Shown piece by piece: positions 5,177 through 16,928 of a stretch of 64,000 nt of DNA; positions within the stretch are counted from its first letter, which is position 1, and each line of letters starts with the position of its first letter. The stretch is from Acidobacteriota bacterium. GTDB lineage: Bacteria > Acidobacteriota > Terriglobia > UBA7540. The notes under the pieces were generated by a model. The model was not told the origin of the DNA. It was given only the letters and a program-made list of their open reading frames with translations, and did no database searches. A program made the translations under genes and the position numbers. The DNA lies in the NCBI GenBank assembly GCA_021838785.1, contig JAKCCV010000020.1:1-64000 (forward strand), read 5' to 3'.

Positions 5177-6259
5177 ATGCAGAAAGTGAAAAGCGGGAAA
5201 TCCGGAGCCGCCCGCAGAAAGTCAAAATCCGAAGGTCGGCGGAAGCGGAGCGATCGAACGGCATCGGCCTCGATGGCCGCGCCCATCGCCGAGCGCGAGC
5301 GCACGCCCGCCGGCACGGAATTTAACCCGCAGATCGGCGTCGAAATCTCCGGGATTCATTTCGCAAATCCTGTCCTGACGGCGAGCGGAACGTTCGGCTA
5401 CGGCCAGGAGTTCGCCCGGCTGATAGACCTCAATCAACTGGGCGGGATCGTGGTCAAGGGTATTTCCGCCGAGCCGATGGAGGGGAATCCCCCGCCGCGC
5501 ATTTACGAAACCGAAGCGGGCATGCTCAACGCCATCGGCTTGCAGAACGTCGGCGCGCGTCGGTTCGTGGAAGAGAAGCTGCCGTTTTTGCGCGGGCTTC
5601 GGACGCGCACCATCGTCAACGTTTTCGGTTATACGACGGAAGACTACGTTCGCGCCATCGAGATTTTGAACGACGGTTCCGGGATTGACGCCTACGAGCT
5701 GAACATCTCCTGCCCGAACACGCGCGCGGGCGGCATGGTTTATGGCAACGACCCGAGGCTGACGGCGGAAGTGGTGGCGGCGTCGAAGCGGGCGGCACGG
5801 CGTCCGCTGTGGGTCAAGCTCTCGCCGAACGTCACCGACATCACGGAGCTGGCTCGCGCGGCGGAAAGCGCGGGCGCGGACGCGCTGACGCTGGTCAACA
5901 CGTTTGTCGGGATGGCGATTGACATCGAAACGCGGACGCCTCGCGTCTCGAACGTGACCGCCGGTCTGTCGGGGCCGGCCATCAAACCCGTGGCGCTGCG
6001 GATGGTTTACCAGACGGCGCGCGCCGTGCGGGTGCCCGTCATCGGCATCGGCGGCATCGCTTCGGCCGAGGACGCGCTCGAGTTCATCATCGCCGGGGCG
6101 TCGGCGGTCCAAATCGGCACGGCCAATTTTTATGCTCCCGACACCGCGCTCCGCGTCGTTGAGGGCATTCGCGCCTGGTGCCGGTCGAAACGCCTGAATC
6201 TTTCGGACGTGGTCGGTTCCATCAAAATCCCCCCTTCCGCCGCGTCGCCCGTCAGTTAA
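5177..6259 (+). CDS. pyrD: Dihydroorotate dehydrogenase B, catalytic subunit
   Basis: This FMN-dependent (beta/alpha)8 barrel oxidises dihydroorotate to orotate. Visible motifs are [13 protein letters not shown] at the barrel start, VVKGIS, the active-site loop [13 protein letters not shown] whose Cys is the class 1B base, [10 protein letters not shown], and the phosphate-binding [20 protein letters not shown] plus VQIGTANFY. From ATG 5177 (AAGGA just upstream) the protein is 360 residues with a 30-residue basic N-terminal extension; ATG 5273 would give 328 residues, closer to the usual 300-310. It follows pyrK by 5 bases. Confidence 0.93.
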
Positions 6260-6520
6260 AGTTGGAGATTGCCGGCTAGCCGCACGCGCAAGAGCGCGCG
6301 CTATCGGCTCTTTCATCTCAAAGTTGAGGCGACTCGATTGAGTCCTTGTAGGAGTTGTGACCGGGCACGCGGCTGCCAAGGTGACAAACTCGCCACAACG
6401 GTCAAGAGGAGTGGCGTGCTCGGCGCGGGCATGTTGGCCGAACCTGGCCGGCAGAAGCGGCGATTCAGGGGGGTGTCCGCTAAGGGCATTTTTCGCTATG
6501 ATGAAGCGGAGGCCAGCCTG

Positions 6521-7945
6521 ATGTTCTCTCGGCACAACCGGATGATGGGTTTTCTCTACCTCCTTGCCGACACGCTGCTGGGGCTGCTGAGCTTCGCGAT
6601 GGCCCATTGGCTCCGCTCCGACGTAGTCACTCCGCGGCCGCTTTATCCGCTGATCTATTACTTCTGGATTGTTCCTCTCGCCGTGGGCCTGTGGGTGACG
6701 GTCGGGGTGGCGACCGGGATTTACCGCGAAATCGAAGAAGAAAATTTTCGTCGCATTTTTACCGATCCGCTCCAAGTCTTCCTCATCTCCACCACGGTGT
6801 TGTTTGCGCTCACCTATGCGTTCAAATGGTTTTTTATCAGCCGACTGTTGCTGGGCTTTTATGCCGTGGCGAACCTGGTGGCGATGGTGCTGTTTCGCTG
6901 GGTCGCTCGTCGGCTGGGAGACCCCTTACGCCGCTCGTTTGGCGGCTATCGTGAATTTCTGTTGGTGGGGGATACTCCGGAAGCCGTGGAAATTGCCCGC
7001 ACGCTTGAAGCCAACGAGTCGCGCGGCGCGCGCCTGTTTGGCGTGGCGCGGGTCGGCGCGCTCGAGGAAAACGAATTCCGTCATCCGCAACTTCGTCGTT
7101 CCTATCCTCTCTACCCAATTCGCGCGCTCCCGGAGCTGATTCGTCGCCACGTCATTGACGAAGTTATTTTCGCCGTCTCCAAGGAAGACCTTGAAAGGCT
7201 CGAGGAGGCATTCTTGCTGTGCGAGCAGGAGGGAATCAAAACCCGTGTCCTGCTCAGTTTTTTCCCGCACGTCATTTCGCGGGTTTATCTCGAGCGCTTG
7301 CGCGACATGCCGTTGCTCACCTTTACCACCACGCCCGCCAGCGAGTCGCTGTTGTTGCTGAAGCGCGCCTTTGATTTCACGCTCGCCCTGCTCTTGCTGG
7401 TGGTGCTCTCACCCCTGTTGGCGATCTTGGCGGTTCTTATCAAACTCACCTCCGAGGGTCCCATCCTTTATCGGCAAACCCGTTGCGGGTTGGGGGGACG
7501 GAAATTCATCGTGTATAAGTTCCGCTCCATGCGCGCGGATGCCGACCTGCACCGCGAGGAACTCGAGGCCCTCAATGAGATGGACGGTCCCGTTTTCAAA
7601 ATCTCTCGTGATCCCCGGTGCACAACCCTCGGCCGGTGGATGCGTAAGTTTTCATTGGATGAGCTGCCGCAGTTGGTGAACGTGCTGAGGGGAGACATGT
7701 CCTTTGTGGGGCCGCGTCCCCCGCTTCCGGAAGAGGTCGAGCACTATGAACCCTGGCAGCGGCGCCGTCTTCGCATGGTTCCGGGCCTTACATGTCTGTG
7801 GGCGCTCGAGGGCCGCAATCGCCTCAGCTTCCGCCGGTGGATGGAACTGGACCTCGAATACATTGACCGCTGGTCGCCTCTGTTGGATTTGAAGATTATC
7901 CTGAAAACCATTCCGGTAGTGGTTTTGGGCCGTGGCGCGTCGTAG
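6521..7945 (+). CDS. Polyisoprenyl-phosphate sugar-1-phosphate transferase
   Basis: The 474-residue protein has four or five N-terminal membrane helices (FLYLLADTLLGLLSFAMAHW, YYFWIVPLAVGLWVTVGV, VFLISTTVLFALTYAF), a CoA-binding-like Rossmann part (FLLVGDTPEAVEIARTLEAN), another membrane helix near residue 290, and the C-terminal bacterial sugar transferase domain with KFRSM, FSLDELPQLVNVLRGDMS and VGPRPPLPEEV. This architecture is that of WcaJ/WbaP-type enzymes, which load the first sugar phosphate onto undecaprenyl phosphate for exopolysaccharide or O-antigen. ATG 6521 has GGAGG about 9 bases upstream. No other polysaccharide genes adjoin it, so the sugar and end product cannot be inferred. 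Confidence 0.9.
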   Translation: MFSRHNRMMGFLYLLADTLLGLLSFAMAHWLRSDVVTPRPLYPLIYYFWIVPLAVGLWVTVGVATGIYREIEEENFRRIFTDPLQVFLISTTVLFALTYAFKWFFISRLLLGFYAVANLVAMVLFRWVARRLGDPLRRSFGGYREFLLVGDTPEAVEIARTLEANESRGARLFGVARVGALEENEFRHPQLRRSYPLYPIRALPELIRRHVIDEVIFAVSKEDLERLEEAFLLCEQEGIKTRVLLSFFPHVISRVYLERLRDMPLLTFTTTPASESLLLLKRAFDFTLALLLLVVLSPLLAILAVLIKLTSEGPILYRQTRCGLGGRKFIVYKFRSMRADADLHREELEALNEMDGPVFKISRDPRCTTLGRWMRKFSLDELPQLVNVLRGDMSFVGPRPPLPEEVEHYEPWQRRRLRMVPGLTCLWALEGRNRLSFRRWMELDLEYIDRWSPLLDLKIILKTIPVVVLGRGAS

Positions 7946-11122: not shown

Positions 11123-12568
11123 ATGCCAACACCGGTCAATAACGTCGAAGAACTGGCAACCAGGGAATATAAATACGGTTTTGTGACCGAGGTCGAGCAG
11201 GAAACGGTTCCGCCCGGACTCAACGAGGATGTCATCCGGCTGATTTCGGCCAAAAAGCACGAGCCCGAGTGGCTGCTCGAATGGCGGCTCAAGGCTTACC
11301 GGCACTGGCTGACCATGACCGAGCCGAAATGGGCCAACATCAAGTACGGCCCGATTGATTACCAGGCGATTCGGTATTACGCCGCGCCCAAGAGCGCCGC
11401 GGGCCCGAAGAGTTTGGACGAAGTTGACCCGGAAATTCTGCGGACCTACGAGAAGCTGGGCATTCCGCTACGCGAGCGTGAGGCACTGGCGGGCGTGGCC
11501 GTGGACGCCGTCTTCGACAGTGTCTCGGTTGGCACAACGTTCAAGGAAAAGCTCAAGGAACTGGGCATTATCTTCTGTAGCTTCTCGGAGGCCGTTCAGG
11601 AGCATCCTGAGCTGGTCCGCAAGTGGCTGGGCTCCGTGGTTCCCTACACCGACAACTTCTTCGCCACGCTCAACTCCGCCGTGTTCAGCGACGGCTCGTT
11701 CGCTTATGTCCCGAAGGGCGTGCGCTGCCCGATGGAGCTCTCCACTTACTTCCGCATCAACGCCAAAGAAACCGGACAGTTCGAGCGGACACTGATTGTG
11801 GCCGAGGAAGGCGCCTACGTCAGCTATCTTGAAGGCTGCACGGCGCCGATGCGCGATGAAAATCAATTGCACGCCGCGGTGGTCGAGCTGGTGGCGCTCG
11901 ACAACGCCACGGTCAAATACTCGACCGTGCAGAACTGGTATCCGGGCGATAAGCACGGCAAGGGCGGCATCTACAACTTCGTCACCAAGCGCGGCAAATG
12001 CCTGGGCGTGAATTCCAAAATTTCATGGACGCAGGTTGAGACCGGCTCGGCGATTACCTGGAAATATCCGAGCTGCATTTTGCAGGGCGATAATTCCGTG
12101 GGCGAGTTTTATTCGGTTGCCGTGGTCAATAACTACCAGCAGGCCGATACGGGAACGAAGATGATTCACCTGGGGAAGAACACCAGGAGCACCATCGTCT
12201 CGAAGGGCATCAGCGCCGGGCGCGGGCAGAACAGCTACCGCGGCGCGGTGCGGGTGCTCAAGAACGCCGCGAACGCAAGGAATTATTCGCAATGCGATTC
12301 GCTGCTGATCGGCGATAAGTGCGGCGCGCACACGTTTCCCTATCTCGAAGTCAAGAACTCCACGGCGCAAATCGAGCATGAAGCTTCAACATCGAAAATC
12401 GGCGAAGACCAGATCTTCTATTGCCGCCAGCGCGGACTTTCCACCGAAGACGCCATCGGCATGATCGTCAACGGGTTCTGTAAACAGGTCTTCCGCGAAT
12501 TGCCCATGGAGTTCGCCGTCGAAGCGCAAAAGCTCTTGGGCGTGAGTTTGGAAGGAAGCGTGGGGTAA
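11123..12568 (+). CDS. sufB: Fe-S cluster assembly scaffold SufB
   Basis: The 481-residue protein has the usual length for SufB and the conserved C-terminal beta-helix core, with [20 protein letters not shown] (the Cys of QCDSL corresponds to the proposed cluster-site cysteine) and [20 protein letters not shown]. SufB with SufC and SufD builds Fe-S clusters from sulfur delivered by SufS/SufU. ATG 11123 has AAGGAG six bases upstream. It is the first gene of the suf run, but sufC does not follow directly: a SIR2-like and a Uma2 gene lie between them. Confidence 0.96.
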
Positions 12569-12625
12569 TTTTGAATTATGAATGGCGAATTACGAATTAG
12601 GACCTGTTCGGGCCGGTAGATATTT

Positions 12626-13582
12626 ATGCGAGTATATGTGCTTGGCGCGGGGGCTTCAGTGCATGCGGGCTACCCGCTCACGAAGGACTTAGGGACAGGG
12701 CTCGGCGAGTGGGCCGACGCAAACCCTCCCCCCTGGAACTTTGCCTATTGGCCCGACAGCCAGGGGCGCAGAGACTACGGCCCAATCAACGACATCGAGG
12801 ATGCTGTGGGCCGGCTTGAGCGCGCCGATAAGCCCGGGAAAATGCTGGAAGGGTTGCTTGTGGCGCTGTGTGGATACTTCAATCGCATCCGGTGCGACAG
12901 TGCTCCGCTGTACCGCCGCTTCTCCAGGGACGTTGTTCGCCATGGGGATGTGATTATCACACTTAACTACGACGTGTCTTTGGAGCGGGAACTACGGCAG
13001 GCCGGAAAATGGGAAATCAGCAACGGTTACGGTTTCGAGATGGGTATCAGCGGCCTGCGCAGGTCACCCACGAGGCTCCTGAAGCTCCACGGCAGCACAA
13101 ACTGGATGCGCGACATTGGCAAACTGCCGGTCATCCCTTATCCGCAGGATTTCGAATTCCTCGGGTACGAAGGTATAAGCGACCCAAAGTTTGATGGCTT
13201 CGTTGCGTTGCGGTACGGCGCCATGATTCCCCTGGGTCCCAGCAAGCAGTTCTTCGTAAACAGCTCGTTCAGCCCTCGTGAGGGCGAGGAGTTCTGGAGC
13301 TCCCTCTGGGGTCAAGCAGCGGATGCATTAAGGGAGGCAGAGGAAGTCGTGATAATCGGGTACAGTTTGCCGAAGGCCGACGCACGGGCGCGGCTGCTCC
13401 TTCTGGAAAGAGCCAACCACGACGCGCAGCTTACAGTTTGCAGTGCATCTCAAAGCAAGGACCTCGCTGGTGAGTTCGCCGCAGCGGGCTTTGGGCGCGT
13501 CCGAATTCGCTCAGACGTCAAGACCTTTGAGGAGCTCTTCGCGATATATGCAAATGCGGGCAGCGCAGCAGGTAGCAGGTAA
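12626..13582 (+). CDS. Stand-alone SIR2-like domain protein
   Basis: The 318-residue protein has sirtuin-like nucleotide-binding motifs: VYVLGAGASVHAGYPL at the N-terminus, VIITLNYDVSLERELRQ near 112 (the Asn-Tyr-Asp of SIR2-like proteins), LKLHGSTNWMRD near 152 with the candidate catalytic His, and EEVVIIGYSLPKADARAR near 245. No zinc-binding cysteine quartet is present, so it is not a deacetylase-type sirtuin. It belongs to the SIR2-like group found in NAD-depleting antiphage systems such as Thoeris, DSR and Sir2-HerA, though also in proteins of unknown role. No second domain is visible. It starts 57 bases after sufB, behind an AT-rich stretch, and is followed by a Uma2 gene. Defence function is inference only. 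Confidence 0.85.
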   Translation: MRVYVLGAGASVHAGYPLTKDLGTGLGEWADANPPPWNFAYWPDSQGRRDYGPINDIEDAVGRLERADKPGKMLEGLLVALCGYFNRIRCDSAPLYRRFSRDVVRHGDVIITLNYDVSLERELRQAGKWEISNGYGFEMGISGLRRSPTRLLKLHGSTNWMRDIGKLPVIPYPQDFEFLGYEGISDPKFDGFVALRYGAMIPLGPSKQFFVNSSFSPREGEEFWSSLWGQAADALREAEEVVIIGYSLPKADARARLLLLERANHDAQLTVCSASQSKDLAGEFAAAGFGRVRIRSDVKTFEELFAIYANAGSAAGSR

Positions 13583-13592
13583 CCGGTAGCAT

Positions 13593-13613
13593 CAGACTTG
13601 TTCCTCAAGTCTG
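13593..13613. repeat. Palindromic hairpin upstream of the Uma2 gene
   Basis: CAGACTTG-TTCCT-CAAGTCTG is a perfect 8-bp stem with a 5-base loop, 11 bases after the SIR2-like stop. It is followed by CGGCGC. A related hairpin with the same GCAGACTT and CAAGT core lies directly after the Uma2 gene (14183-14207), so the gene is bracketed. Confidence 0.6.
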
Positions 13614-13641
13614 CGGCGCTTCTGGCAAAGGACTTAAGACA

Positions 13642-14172
13642 ATGGCAACCAAAACGCTTTTGACGGTCGAGGAATTCCTCCGGCTGCCGGAGCCGCCGGA
13701 CGCGCACTATGAGCTGGTGGAAGGAGTACTCATCACCGTGTCACCGACCATGCCGGAACACAACAATGTCCGAGACACACTTCTGGTTGCCCTCCGCAAC
13801 TTTCTGGCAGGGCGCGAATTGGGTCGGGTGTGGTCGGAACAGGCTTTCCACCTCTTTGGCAATACGGTCCGCATTCCCGACATCTCTTTCGTACGCGCTG
13901 GGCGCGTAGTTGATCCTCACCATCTTCCCGAAGGCGCGCCCGACTTGGCGGTGGAAGTGATTTCCCCAACCAACACGCCTCGGGAAATGGATCAACGGGT
14001 CAGCGACTTCTTCGCCGCCGGGTGTCAGCGGGTGTGGGTGGTTTACCCCGAACACCGTGAAGTTTACATCCACGGTTTGGCCGGCGTGAGCCGCCGGCGT
14101 GCAGAGGAGACTCTGGAAGACACCGAGTTGCTGCCGGGGTTTTCGGTGAGGGTTTCGAGCTTGTTTGAATGA
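13642..14172 (+). CDS. Uma2-family putative endonuclease
   Basis: This 176-residue protein matches the Uma2 (DUF820) family of PD-(D/E)XK-fold putative nucleases. Visible motifs are LTVEEFLRLPEPPDAHYELVE at the N-terminus, IPDISFVRAG near 76, APDLAVEVISPTNTPREMD with the PD...ExxS core near 95-112, and RVWVVYPEHREVYIH. Such genes are numerous in cyanobacteria, Acidobacteriota and Chloroflexota and often behave as mobile accessory genes; their substrate is not established. It interrupts the suf operon together with the SIR2-like gene and is flanked by related hairpins at 13593-13613 and 14183-14207. Confidence 0.9.
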   Translation: MATKTLLTVEEFLRLPEPPDAHYELVEGVLITVSPTMPEHNNVRDTLLVALRNFLAGRELGRVWSEQAFHLFGNTVRIPDISFVRAGRVVDPHHLPEGAPDLAVEVISPTNTPREMDQRVSDFFAAGCQRVWVVYPEHREVYIHGLAGVSRRRAEETLEDTELLPGFSVRVSSLFE

Positions 14173-14182
14173 AAACATGCGG

Positions 14183-14207
14183 CGCAGACTTAATCTTCAA
14201 GTTTGCG
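14183..14207 (+). repeat. Hairpin after the Uma2 gene
   Basis: CGCAGACTT and AAGTTTGCG form a 9-bp stem (one G-T pair) with a 7-base loop, 10 bases after the Uma2 stop. Five Ts follow at about 14212-14216, so it could also terminate transcription. It is related in sequence to the hairpin at 13593-13613. Confidence 0.55.
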
Positions 14208-14248
14208 ACAGTTTTTCAGCAGGGGCGGTTCATGCATCGCCCGTGCAT

Positions 14249-14304
14249 GTCATCTCCGCGAAGGCGGGGGACCAGGACTGGATTCCCGCCTGCGCGGGAA
14301 TGAC
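14249..14304. repeat. REP-like palindrome (GTCAT...ATGAC)
   Basis: A 56-base imperfect palindrome begins GTCATCTCCGCGAAGGCGGG and ends CCCGCCTGCGCGGGAATGAC. The two arms pair over almost their whole length around a short CCAGGACTGG-like centre. This GTCATTCCCGCG...GGCGGGAATCCAG type of dispersed palindrome occurs in many unrelated GC-rich genomes. It lies in the 215-base gap between the Uma2 gene and sufC. Confidence 0.75.
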
Positions 14305-14387
14305 GAGAAGTGGGGCGGGAACGACAAGTTAGACACAGCGGACCGGGACAATGGACTAAGAACAACTGACAAAGGACGAAAAAACGA

Positions 14388-15149
14388 ATGTTATTGGAAA
14401 TCAAAAATCTGCACGCCAAGGTTGGCGGGAACGAAATTCTGAAAGGGATTGACCTGAAAGTCGGCCTGGGCGAGGTGCATGCCATCATGGGGCCGAACGG
14501 CTCGGGAAAATCCACGCTCGCGCAAGTGCTGGCGGGCCGCGATGTCTATGCGGTGACGGAAGGCGAAGTCCTCTACGAGGGCAAAAACCTGCTCGAGATG
14601 GCGCCCGAAGACCGCGCCCGCGAGGGCGTTTTCATGGCGTTTCAATATCCGGTGGAAATTCCGGGCGTGTCGAACACTTATTTCCTGCGCACCGCGCGCA
14701 ACGCGATTCGCAAGCATCATGGGCAGGAAGAGATGGACGCCATGGATTTTCTGACCTTCATCCGCGAGAAGATGAAGCTGCTCGAGATGGACGAGAGCCT
14801 GATGACCCGGCCGGTGAACGAAGGTTTTTCGGGCGGAGAGAAGAAGCGCAACGAAATTTTCCAGATGGCGGTGCTAGAGCCGAAGCTGGCCATTCTCGAT
14901 GAGACCGATTCCGGACTCGACATTGACGCGCTCAAAATTGTGGCGCGCGGCGTGAACGCGATGCGCTCGAAAGACCGCTCGATGATTGTGGTGACGCATT
15001 ACCAGCGCCTACTGAATTACATCGTGCCGGATTTCGTCCACGTGTTGTCGGACGGCCGCATCGTGAAATCGGGCCGCAAGGAGCTGGCGCTCGAACTCGA
15101 ACAAAAAGGTTACGGCTGGCTGGAAGGCGCCGTGAACGCGACGGCCTAG
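14388..15149 (+). CDS. sufC: Fe-S cluster assembly ATPase SufC
   Basis: The 253-residue ABC-type ATPase has Walker A GPNGSGKST, signature FSGGEKKRNEI and Walker B LAILDETDSGLDI, and the H-loop VVTHYQRLLNYI. It powers the SufBCD scaffold. ATG 14388 has AAAGGA about 11 bases upstream. It is separated from sufB by 1.8 kb of accessory genes and repeats, and followed after 119 bases by sufD. Confidence 0.97.
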   Translation: MLLEIKNLHAKVGGNEILKGIDLKVGLGEVHAIMGPNGSGKSTLAQVLAGRDVYAVTEGEVLYEGKNLLEMAPEDRAREGVFMAFQYPVEIPGVSNTYFLRTARNAIRKHHGQEEMDAMDFLTFIREKMKLLEMDESLMTRPVNEGFSGGEKKRNEIFQMAVLEPKLAILDETDSGLDIDALKIVARGVNAMRSKDRSMIVVTHYQRLLNYIVPDFVHVLSDGRIVKSGRKELALELEQKGYGWLEGAVNATA

Positions 15150-15176: not shown

Positions 15177-15195
15177 CGCCGGTCACAGACCGGCG
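15177..15195. repeat. Small hairpin between sufC and sufD
   Basis: CGCCGGT-CACAG-ACCGGCG is a perfect 7-bp stem followed by GCTACA. The trailing GCTACA is also the end of the dispersed repeat at 730-786. It may be a reduced member of the same kind of intergenic element. Confidence 0.45.
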
Positions 15196-15268
15196 CTACA
15201 GCGCGCAGCAACGCGGGCCACGAACCGGCGCCTCGGTGGAGCAAGGGCGGCAAGGGAATTAGAAAATC

Positions 15269-16640: not shown

Positions 16641-16928
16641 ATGATGACGACCGAAGAAATCGAACGGCGGCTGAACCAATTGAGCGAAATCCAGATTGTC
16701 CAAGGCGAACTCCTGAACCGAATTGAGCAGGCGGTAGCGCGCAATACGGAGGCCATCGCCAGCAATACAGAGGCCATCGCCAGCAACCGCGAGGCGATTG
16801 CTCGCACCGCGGAGGCGGTCGGCAAACTGACCGACGGAATGACCCTTCTGCAAGCCGCCATGGAGCGGTTGTTTGAACACATGGACCGGTTCCTTCGCGG
16901 GCTGGAATCGAACGGTCACAAGAACTAA
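16641..16928 (+). CDS. Small heptad-repeat coiled-coil protein
   Basis: This 95-residue protein is largely a predicted coiled coil. Its centre has four near-identical heptads, ARNTEAI, ASNTEAI, ASNREAI and ARTAEAV, followed by GKLTDGMTLLQAAMERLF. No enzyme motif is seen and I do not recognise the family. Two tandem ATG codons begin it at 16641/16644. It lies between sufD and sufS with 49 and 17 bases of spacing, so it is probably co-transcribed, yet it is not a known SUF component. Similar short heptad-rich proteins occur widely as unassigned accessory genes. Confidence 0.7.
   Translation: MMTTEEIERRLNQLSEIQIVQGELLNRIEQAVARNTEAIASNTEAIASNREAIARTAEAVGKLTDGMTLLQAAMERLFEHMDRFLRGLESNGHKN

Follow-up and report, generated by a model that had tools for sequence, protein, structure and literature searches.

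The sufB-sufC junction of the window

The window, i.e. the whole stretch of 64,000 nucleotides of Acidobacteriota DNA analysed here, contains a suf operon with the gene order sufB, SIR2-like gene, Uma2 gene, sufC, sufD and sufS, all on the plus strand (Table 1). Coordinates and profile matches confirmed the initial annotation, according to which a SIR2-like and a Uma2 gene lie between sufB and sufC and are read in the same direction. The gap between sufB and sufC, referred to as the slot in the following, amounts to 1819 bp. The GAATTA motifs described earlier behind sufB were recovered as four heptamers, and the palindromic repeats described at the gene pair were found at three sites.

Table 1. 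Genes and repeats at the sufB-sufC junction (positions within the window)
Feature	Position	Strand	Description
sufB	11123-12568	+	NF008773 SufB, 925 bits; upstream border of the slot
Four heptamers GAATTAT GAATGGC GAATTAC GAATTAG	12573-12600	+	4 nt after the sufB stop codon
SIR2-like gene, 318 aa	12626-13582	+	SIR2_2 (PF13289); GAGAS nucleotide-binding motif, N114 and H155 intact
GTAG-tagged REP-like palindrome	13586-13614 (palindrome 13593-13613)	+	GTAG CAT CAGACTTG TTCCT CAAGTCTG C
Uma2 gene (PD-(D/E)XK-type), 176 aa	13642-14172	+	PF05685; member of the slot-specific Uma2 clade
Second, degenerate palindrome copy	14183-14207 (palindrome 14185-14205)	+	Downstream of Uma2
Further palindrome TTCCCGCCTGCGCGGGAATGAC	14279-14304 (palindrome 14283-14304)		2 matches (one site, one per strand) vs 0.15 expected
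Five heptamers GGACAAT GGACTAA GAACAAC TGACAAA GGACGAA	14346-14380	+	Just upstream of sufC
sufC	14388-15149	+	TIGR01978 SufC, 367 bits; downstream border of the slot

An Rfam search of the slot matched no RNA element, and intrinsic terminators and promoters were present in the sufB-sufC gap at chance level. Judging from the sequence, read-through from the suf promoter probably drives the SIR2-like and Uma2 genes, which would then be co-transcribed with the suf genes. Further downstream in the operon, a GTAG-tagged hairpin is located between sufC and sufD (15177-15199, minus strand), and a 95-aa repetitive, coiled-coil-like reading frame with no convincing Pfam match between sufD and sufS (16641-16928, plus strand).

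A pattern of three heptamers matched twice in the window, compared to an expectation of 0.03. The 7-nt periodicity recurs in slots of the family described below, reaching z = 10.6 in their first 50 nt (33 slots) and z = 11.8 in their last 60 nt (28 slots), and it was absent from their middle. It is not exclusive to the slot, being weaker after sufC (z 5.5) and absent or marginal after sufD. Intergenic heptamer repeats such as the cyanobacterial STRR and the TAACTGA repeats (PMC4679880) likewise consist of 7-nt units directly before start codons or between genes. In contrast to these, the heptamer sequence of the slot varies by species, and only the period and the place are common.

The junction in related genomes

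The comparison of the window genome (3.42 Mb, 98% complete) covered the 39 genomes of its family, 28 of which carry sufB and sufC on one contig. In these 28 genomes the sufB-sufC gap ranged from 101 to 2731 bp with a median of 652 bp, and exceeded 300 bp in 22 of them; in G037 it measures 220 bp. The median in other families of the class was 44 bp, with a gap of more than 300 bp in one of 48 genomes, and the sufC-sufD gap of the family itself has a median of 106 bp. Long junctions are therefore specific to the sufB-sufC position of this family, as measured against control junctions taken from the suf operon only.

Nearly all of these relatives are metagenome bins, so that individual gaps could be assembly errors. 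The long gap is backed by two near neighbours, genomes of the same genus with gaps of 1852 and 639 bp. An assembly artefact is an unlikely source of the long gap because the latter recurs in further genomes of the genus, G001 and G003.

In G003, the closest relative (SufB 99% and SufC 98% identical to the proteins of the window genome), the slot contains neither SIR2 nor Uma2, a different small gene being present instead. An alignment of both slots survives only at the sufB end and in the last stretch before sufC. The coupling to an Fe-S operon, which had been regarded as unusual from the window alone, is real, but it belongs to the junction of the family and not to the SIR2-like and Uma2 genes.

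Content and orientation of the slot

The content of the slot differs between the genomes of the family. Uma2 genes are present in the window genome, G007, G010, G018, G021, G028 (two copies), G030 and G035 (frameshifted), and genes encoding DUF2283 proteins in G010, G020, G023, G024, G026, G035 and G038. Further cargo comprises DinB_2 proteins, assigned by NCBIfam to the YfiT bacillithiol-transferase type (G028, G029, G032-G035), DoxX (G015, G016), VOC and a second DinB type (G017, G018) and a Y1 (RAYT-type) transposase (G001, G032). SIR2 was detected in the slots of the window genome and G001 only. A GNAT protein, a 3-dmu-9 methyltransferase-like protein, a partial uracil-DNA-glycosylase-like frame and unnamed proteins were single cases, and some slots are nearly empty. 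No integrase was recognised among the cargo examined.

Using 19 cargo queries, tblastn yielded 47 matches on the suf strand and none on the opposite strand, a count which includes the 19 self-matches and was obtained with queries chosen from plus-strand frames after inspection. For DUF2283, seven of nine close homologues are located inside the slot and an eighth on the same suf contig. A role of DUF2283 as antitoxin found no support in a literature search. In the slots of G023 and G038 (L080, L065) the DUF2283 gene is preceded by an unnamed gene of 81 aa, making them a candidate two-gene pair, and four slots (G015, G017, G018, G030) share a family of unnamed proteins of about 140 aa with no Pfam match. 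In G248, which belongs to the same class, a ParD-ParE toxin-antitoxin pair lies between sufB and sufC (L220, 3006-3599).

We consider it likely that the family has a variable cargo slot at its sufB-sufC junction and that the SIR2-like and Uma2 genes are independent occupants, not a system. The cargo, single small accessory genes that read with suf, lies inside a housekeeping operon amid GTAG-tagged REP palindromes, with a heptamer-repeat tract at either end, and would have changed between genomes by gain, duplication and loss. In the window, the slot holds a Uma2 gene from a lineage that is probably an old resident of the slot, along with a SIR2-like gene that occupies it in two genomes only.

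REP palindromes and the origin of the slot

The GTAG-tagged palindrome and its degenerate copy are the only two matches in the whole 3.42-Mb genome, and both flank Uma2 in the slot. The chance of both copies falling in the gap at random is about 3e-7. A search for the Y1 transposase gene (PF01797) gave no match in the window genome; it was found in 34 of the 39 family genomes, two of which (G001 and G032) carry it inside the slot. The G001 genome likewise has two copies of the palindrome, identical or nearly identical to that of the window, and these flank the Y1 transposase of its slot; the arrangement in G032 is similar. REPtrons share with the window palindrome the GTAG foot and the hairpin, and in G001 and G032 some palindromes are oppositely oriented and flank the Y1 transposase (PMC3733652). 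The window genome differs from REPtrons in holding two copies only and no Y1 gene; for this reason its palindromes are probably relics of a REP/RAYT element rather than an expanding REP family.

GTAG repeats are known to border RAYT genes, and the GTAG motif is a cleavage site of an E. coli RAYT (PMC3733652). One might assume that a REPtron opened the junction in an ancestor and that the cargo arrived via REP-based single-strand transposition or recombination. Hairpins tagged with GTAG or GTGG number 15 in the 29.5 kb of slot sequence and 6 in the 53.7 kb of the sufC/D region behind it. This distribution is in line with such a landing site, as are the REPs flanking the Y1 gene in two slots. 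However, many slots are devoid of such a REP, as is the window genome of a Y1 gene, and neither target duplications nor precise cargo ends were seen. Furthermore, REPs are common dwellers of intergenic regions and may have arrived later. We regard this route as unlikely.

A neutral explanation would be that the distance between sufB and sufC is uncritical, the junction merely tolerating DNA, with the genes as random debris on their way out. Decay was indeed observed, since the Uma2 gene of G035 is frameshifted and the Y1 gene in the slot of G032 contains an internal stop, and the nearly empty slots fit as well. Yet the Uma2 and DUF2283 clades persist in different genera and their frames are intact, the SIR2 pair is apparently under purifying selection (see below) and the orientation of the cargo is one-sided, making random debris an improbable account of the slot.

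The Uma2 protein

All Uma2 homologues of the family with at least 58% identity are located in the slot or, on a short contig, just upstream of sufC (G007, G030); all remaining ones share at most 49% identity. The slot Uma2 proteins form one clade against 21 others (support 100/100). Their carriers are scattered on the sufB+sufC tree, requiring 8 changes vs 7.3 with shuffled labels. The slot Uma2 may be an old resident, perhaps derived from an early tandem duplication as in G028, which was lost many times; alternatively, it may have been exchanged repeatedly between slots.

The Uma2 protein of the window matches PF05685 over the full length (107.5 bits, E 6.8e-31; residues 9-171 on positions 1-171 of 172 of the profile). 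Of the nuclease-fold residues, D80 and E105 are present and the usual lysine position is occupied by R119. Arginine replaces the lysine of solved relatives in the window protein and in most other slot members. Because of this exchange, catalysis by the predicted nuclease-fold protein is doubtful. The family Uma2/DUF820/COG4636 has been described as a likely solo toxin which is rarely associated with antitoxins (PMC2701414). Compared to this family at large, the clade of the window protein is tied to one operon junction.

The SIR2-like protein

The match of the SIR2-like protein to PF13289 is marginal (24.8 bits, cut-off 24.5), but the motifs support the assignment. N114, D116, H155 and G156 are invariant in 24 aligned SIR2 sequences, and the nucleotide-binding motif G7-A8-G9-S11 is kept in at least 92% of them. 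As the catalytic Asn and His are intact, NADase activity is predicted, and in all likelihood the protein acts alone, as an NAD-consuming effector of the SIR2_2 type with a presumed role in defence. A phmmer search against the PDB gave no sequence match. A PDB profile search with the SIR2 alignment retrieved SIR2-like chains at E 0.05-0.5 only, mixed with unrelated eIF2B, and was not counted; the single-sequence AlphaFold model (pLDDT 39.9) was left unused.

The G001 copy is the sister of the window copy (support 100/99), with 57% identity, and starts 3 nt past the sufB stop codon. For this pair we calculated a dN of 0.36 and a dS of 2.2, i.e. a dN/dS of about 0.17, with the limitation that a dS above 2 is saturated. 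The ratio indicates that the pair is under purifying selection. Since the dS of the suf genes is 0.65-1.07, the SIR2-like gene appears to have been kept functional and not simply co-inherited. Its divergence, saturated as dS is, suggests two arrivals or an allele replacement in place of simple joint descent.

The SIR2 relatives elsewhere in the class are mostly solitary genes, too. Several are located directly behind genes which, by eye, resemble those for seryl-tRNA synthetase (L205), DnaB (L212), release factor 1 (L215), HemB (L208) and an AddA-like helicase (L207). In G341 (L215) the SIR2 relative starts 7 nt after the release-factor-1-like gene and is located upstream of a possible prmC (by eye). 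Behind the relatives in G149 (L207, about 5312-6835) and G306 (L212) lies in each case a gene for a small protein, of 156 and 189 aa, respectively; both proteins have a similar layout with an apparent N-terminal membrane segment and may form a two-gene module with SIR2. No match to SIR2-like relatives was obtained in viral contigs, phages and plasmids, whereby the viral scan detects close relatives only, and a scan of named genomes with the SIR2-like query found nothing.

With the SIR2_2 defence sirtuins (ThsA of Thoeris, DSR1/DSR2, SIR2 of SPARSA) the protein shares the SIR2_2 domain, the GAGAS motif and N114 and H155 of the catalytic type. It differs from them in its length of 318 aa, with no second domain and no known partner adjoining, and its PADLOC matches are weak and partial. 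ThsA of Thoeris carries a C-terminal SLOG sensor domain and is accompanied by the TIR protein ThsB; the window protein, in contrast, consists of SIR2_2 only, and its gene has sufB and Uma2 as neighbours. DSR1 and DSR2, with their long C-terminal helical region, comprise about 1000 aa and are far larger. In SPARSA/Aga-SIR2 systems a short prokaryotic Argonaute is adjacent, whereas the window gene is adjoined by sufB and Uma2 and shows a weak domain match only.

Two occupants or one system

The initial annotation had offered two readings of the SIR2-like and Uma2 genes, a small defence or toxin-like pair and two independent accessory insertions. The latter is supported: the phylogenetic distributions of Uma2 and SIR2 among the slots differ, and every recognisable cargo gene reads in the direction of suf. 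That the two genes form an antiphage or toxin-like unit which landed in the suf operon is highly improbable, and this reading was rejected because the co-occurrence is absent. The genes are adjacent and co-directional, and defence libraries include both families (weak matches of PADLOC SIR2 models, best E 7.9e-07; PDC-S03 vs Uma2 with E 3.6e-20), but a second case is missing. In G001, SIR2 is accompanied by a Y1 transposase and not by Uma2, seven other slots contain Uma2 without SIR2, and tblastn detected no Uma2 in the neighbourhoods of 13 SIR2 relatives. The co-occurrence check proposed at the outset has thereby been carried out and counts against the pair. Moreover, the REP palindrome separates both genes.

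A housekeeping role linked to Fe-S, e.g. NAD-dependent regulation of SUF, could account for the place of the SIR2-like gene in the operon and would agree with the close spacing to sufB in G001 and with the low dN/dS, but is hardly credible as only 2 of about 30 genomes have SIR2 in the slot, the closest relative G003 lacks it, and the SIR2 relatives follow unrelated genes.

Significance of the slot

Among named organisms with sufB and sufC, the sufB-sufC gap exceeded 300 bp in 7 of 78 loci, compared to 0 of 68 for sufC-sufD (p about 0.01), in a small sample not designed for testing a docking place. The long gaps contain mostly small co-directional genes, encoding PDDEXK_3 (L159), a 23S rRNA IVP (L184) and DUF433 (L149); the genes of L140 and L190 have no Pfam match and L172 has an antisense frame only. 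The gap of L141 measures 4.8 kb, and its sufC may not be a true one. The ParD-ParE pair of G248 adds a case from the class of the window genome. Only tentatively do we suggest that the sufB-sufC junction might be a docking place on the Fe-S operon, used independently in several phyla, for small toxin-, nuclease- or NADase-like genes. If so, these genes, being co-directional and often a few nucleotides past the sufB stop, would be expressed constitutively and would be hard to lose without disturbing suf.

Mapping usually places hotspots of accessory genes between core operons, at tRNA genes or in prophages. The slot has fixed core borders and a rapid accessory turnover in common with chromosomal hotspots and core defence hotspots (PMC5635113, PMC10250203). 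In contrast to these hotspots, it is bordered by two genes belonging to the same housekeeping operon, and its cargo amounts to between one and four small genes, all co-directional, among which no integrase was recognised. A family-wide slot within an operon, carrying single co-directional genes and repeats, would escape searches for defence islands and could hide solitary effectors.
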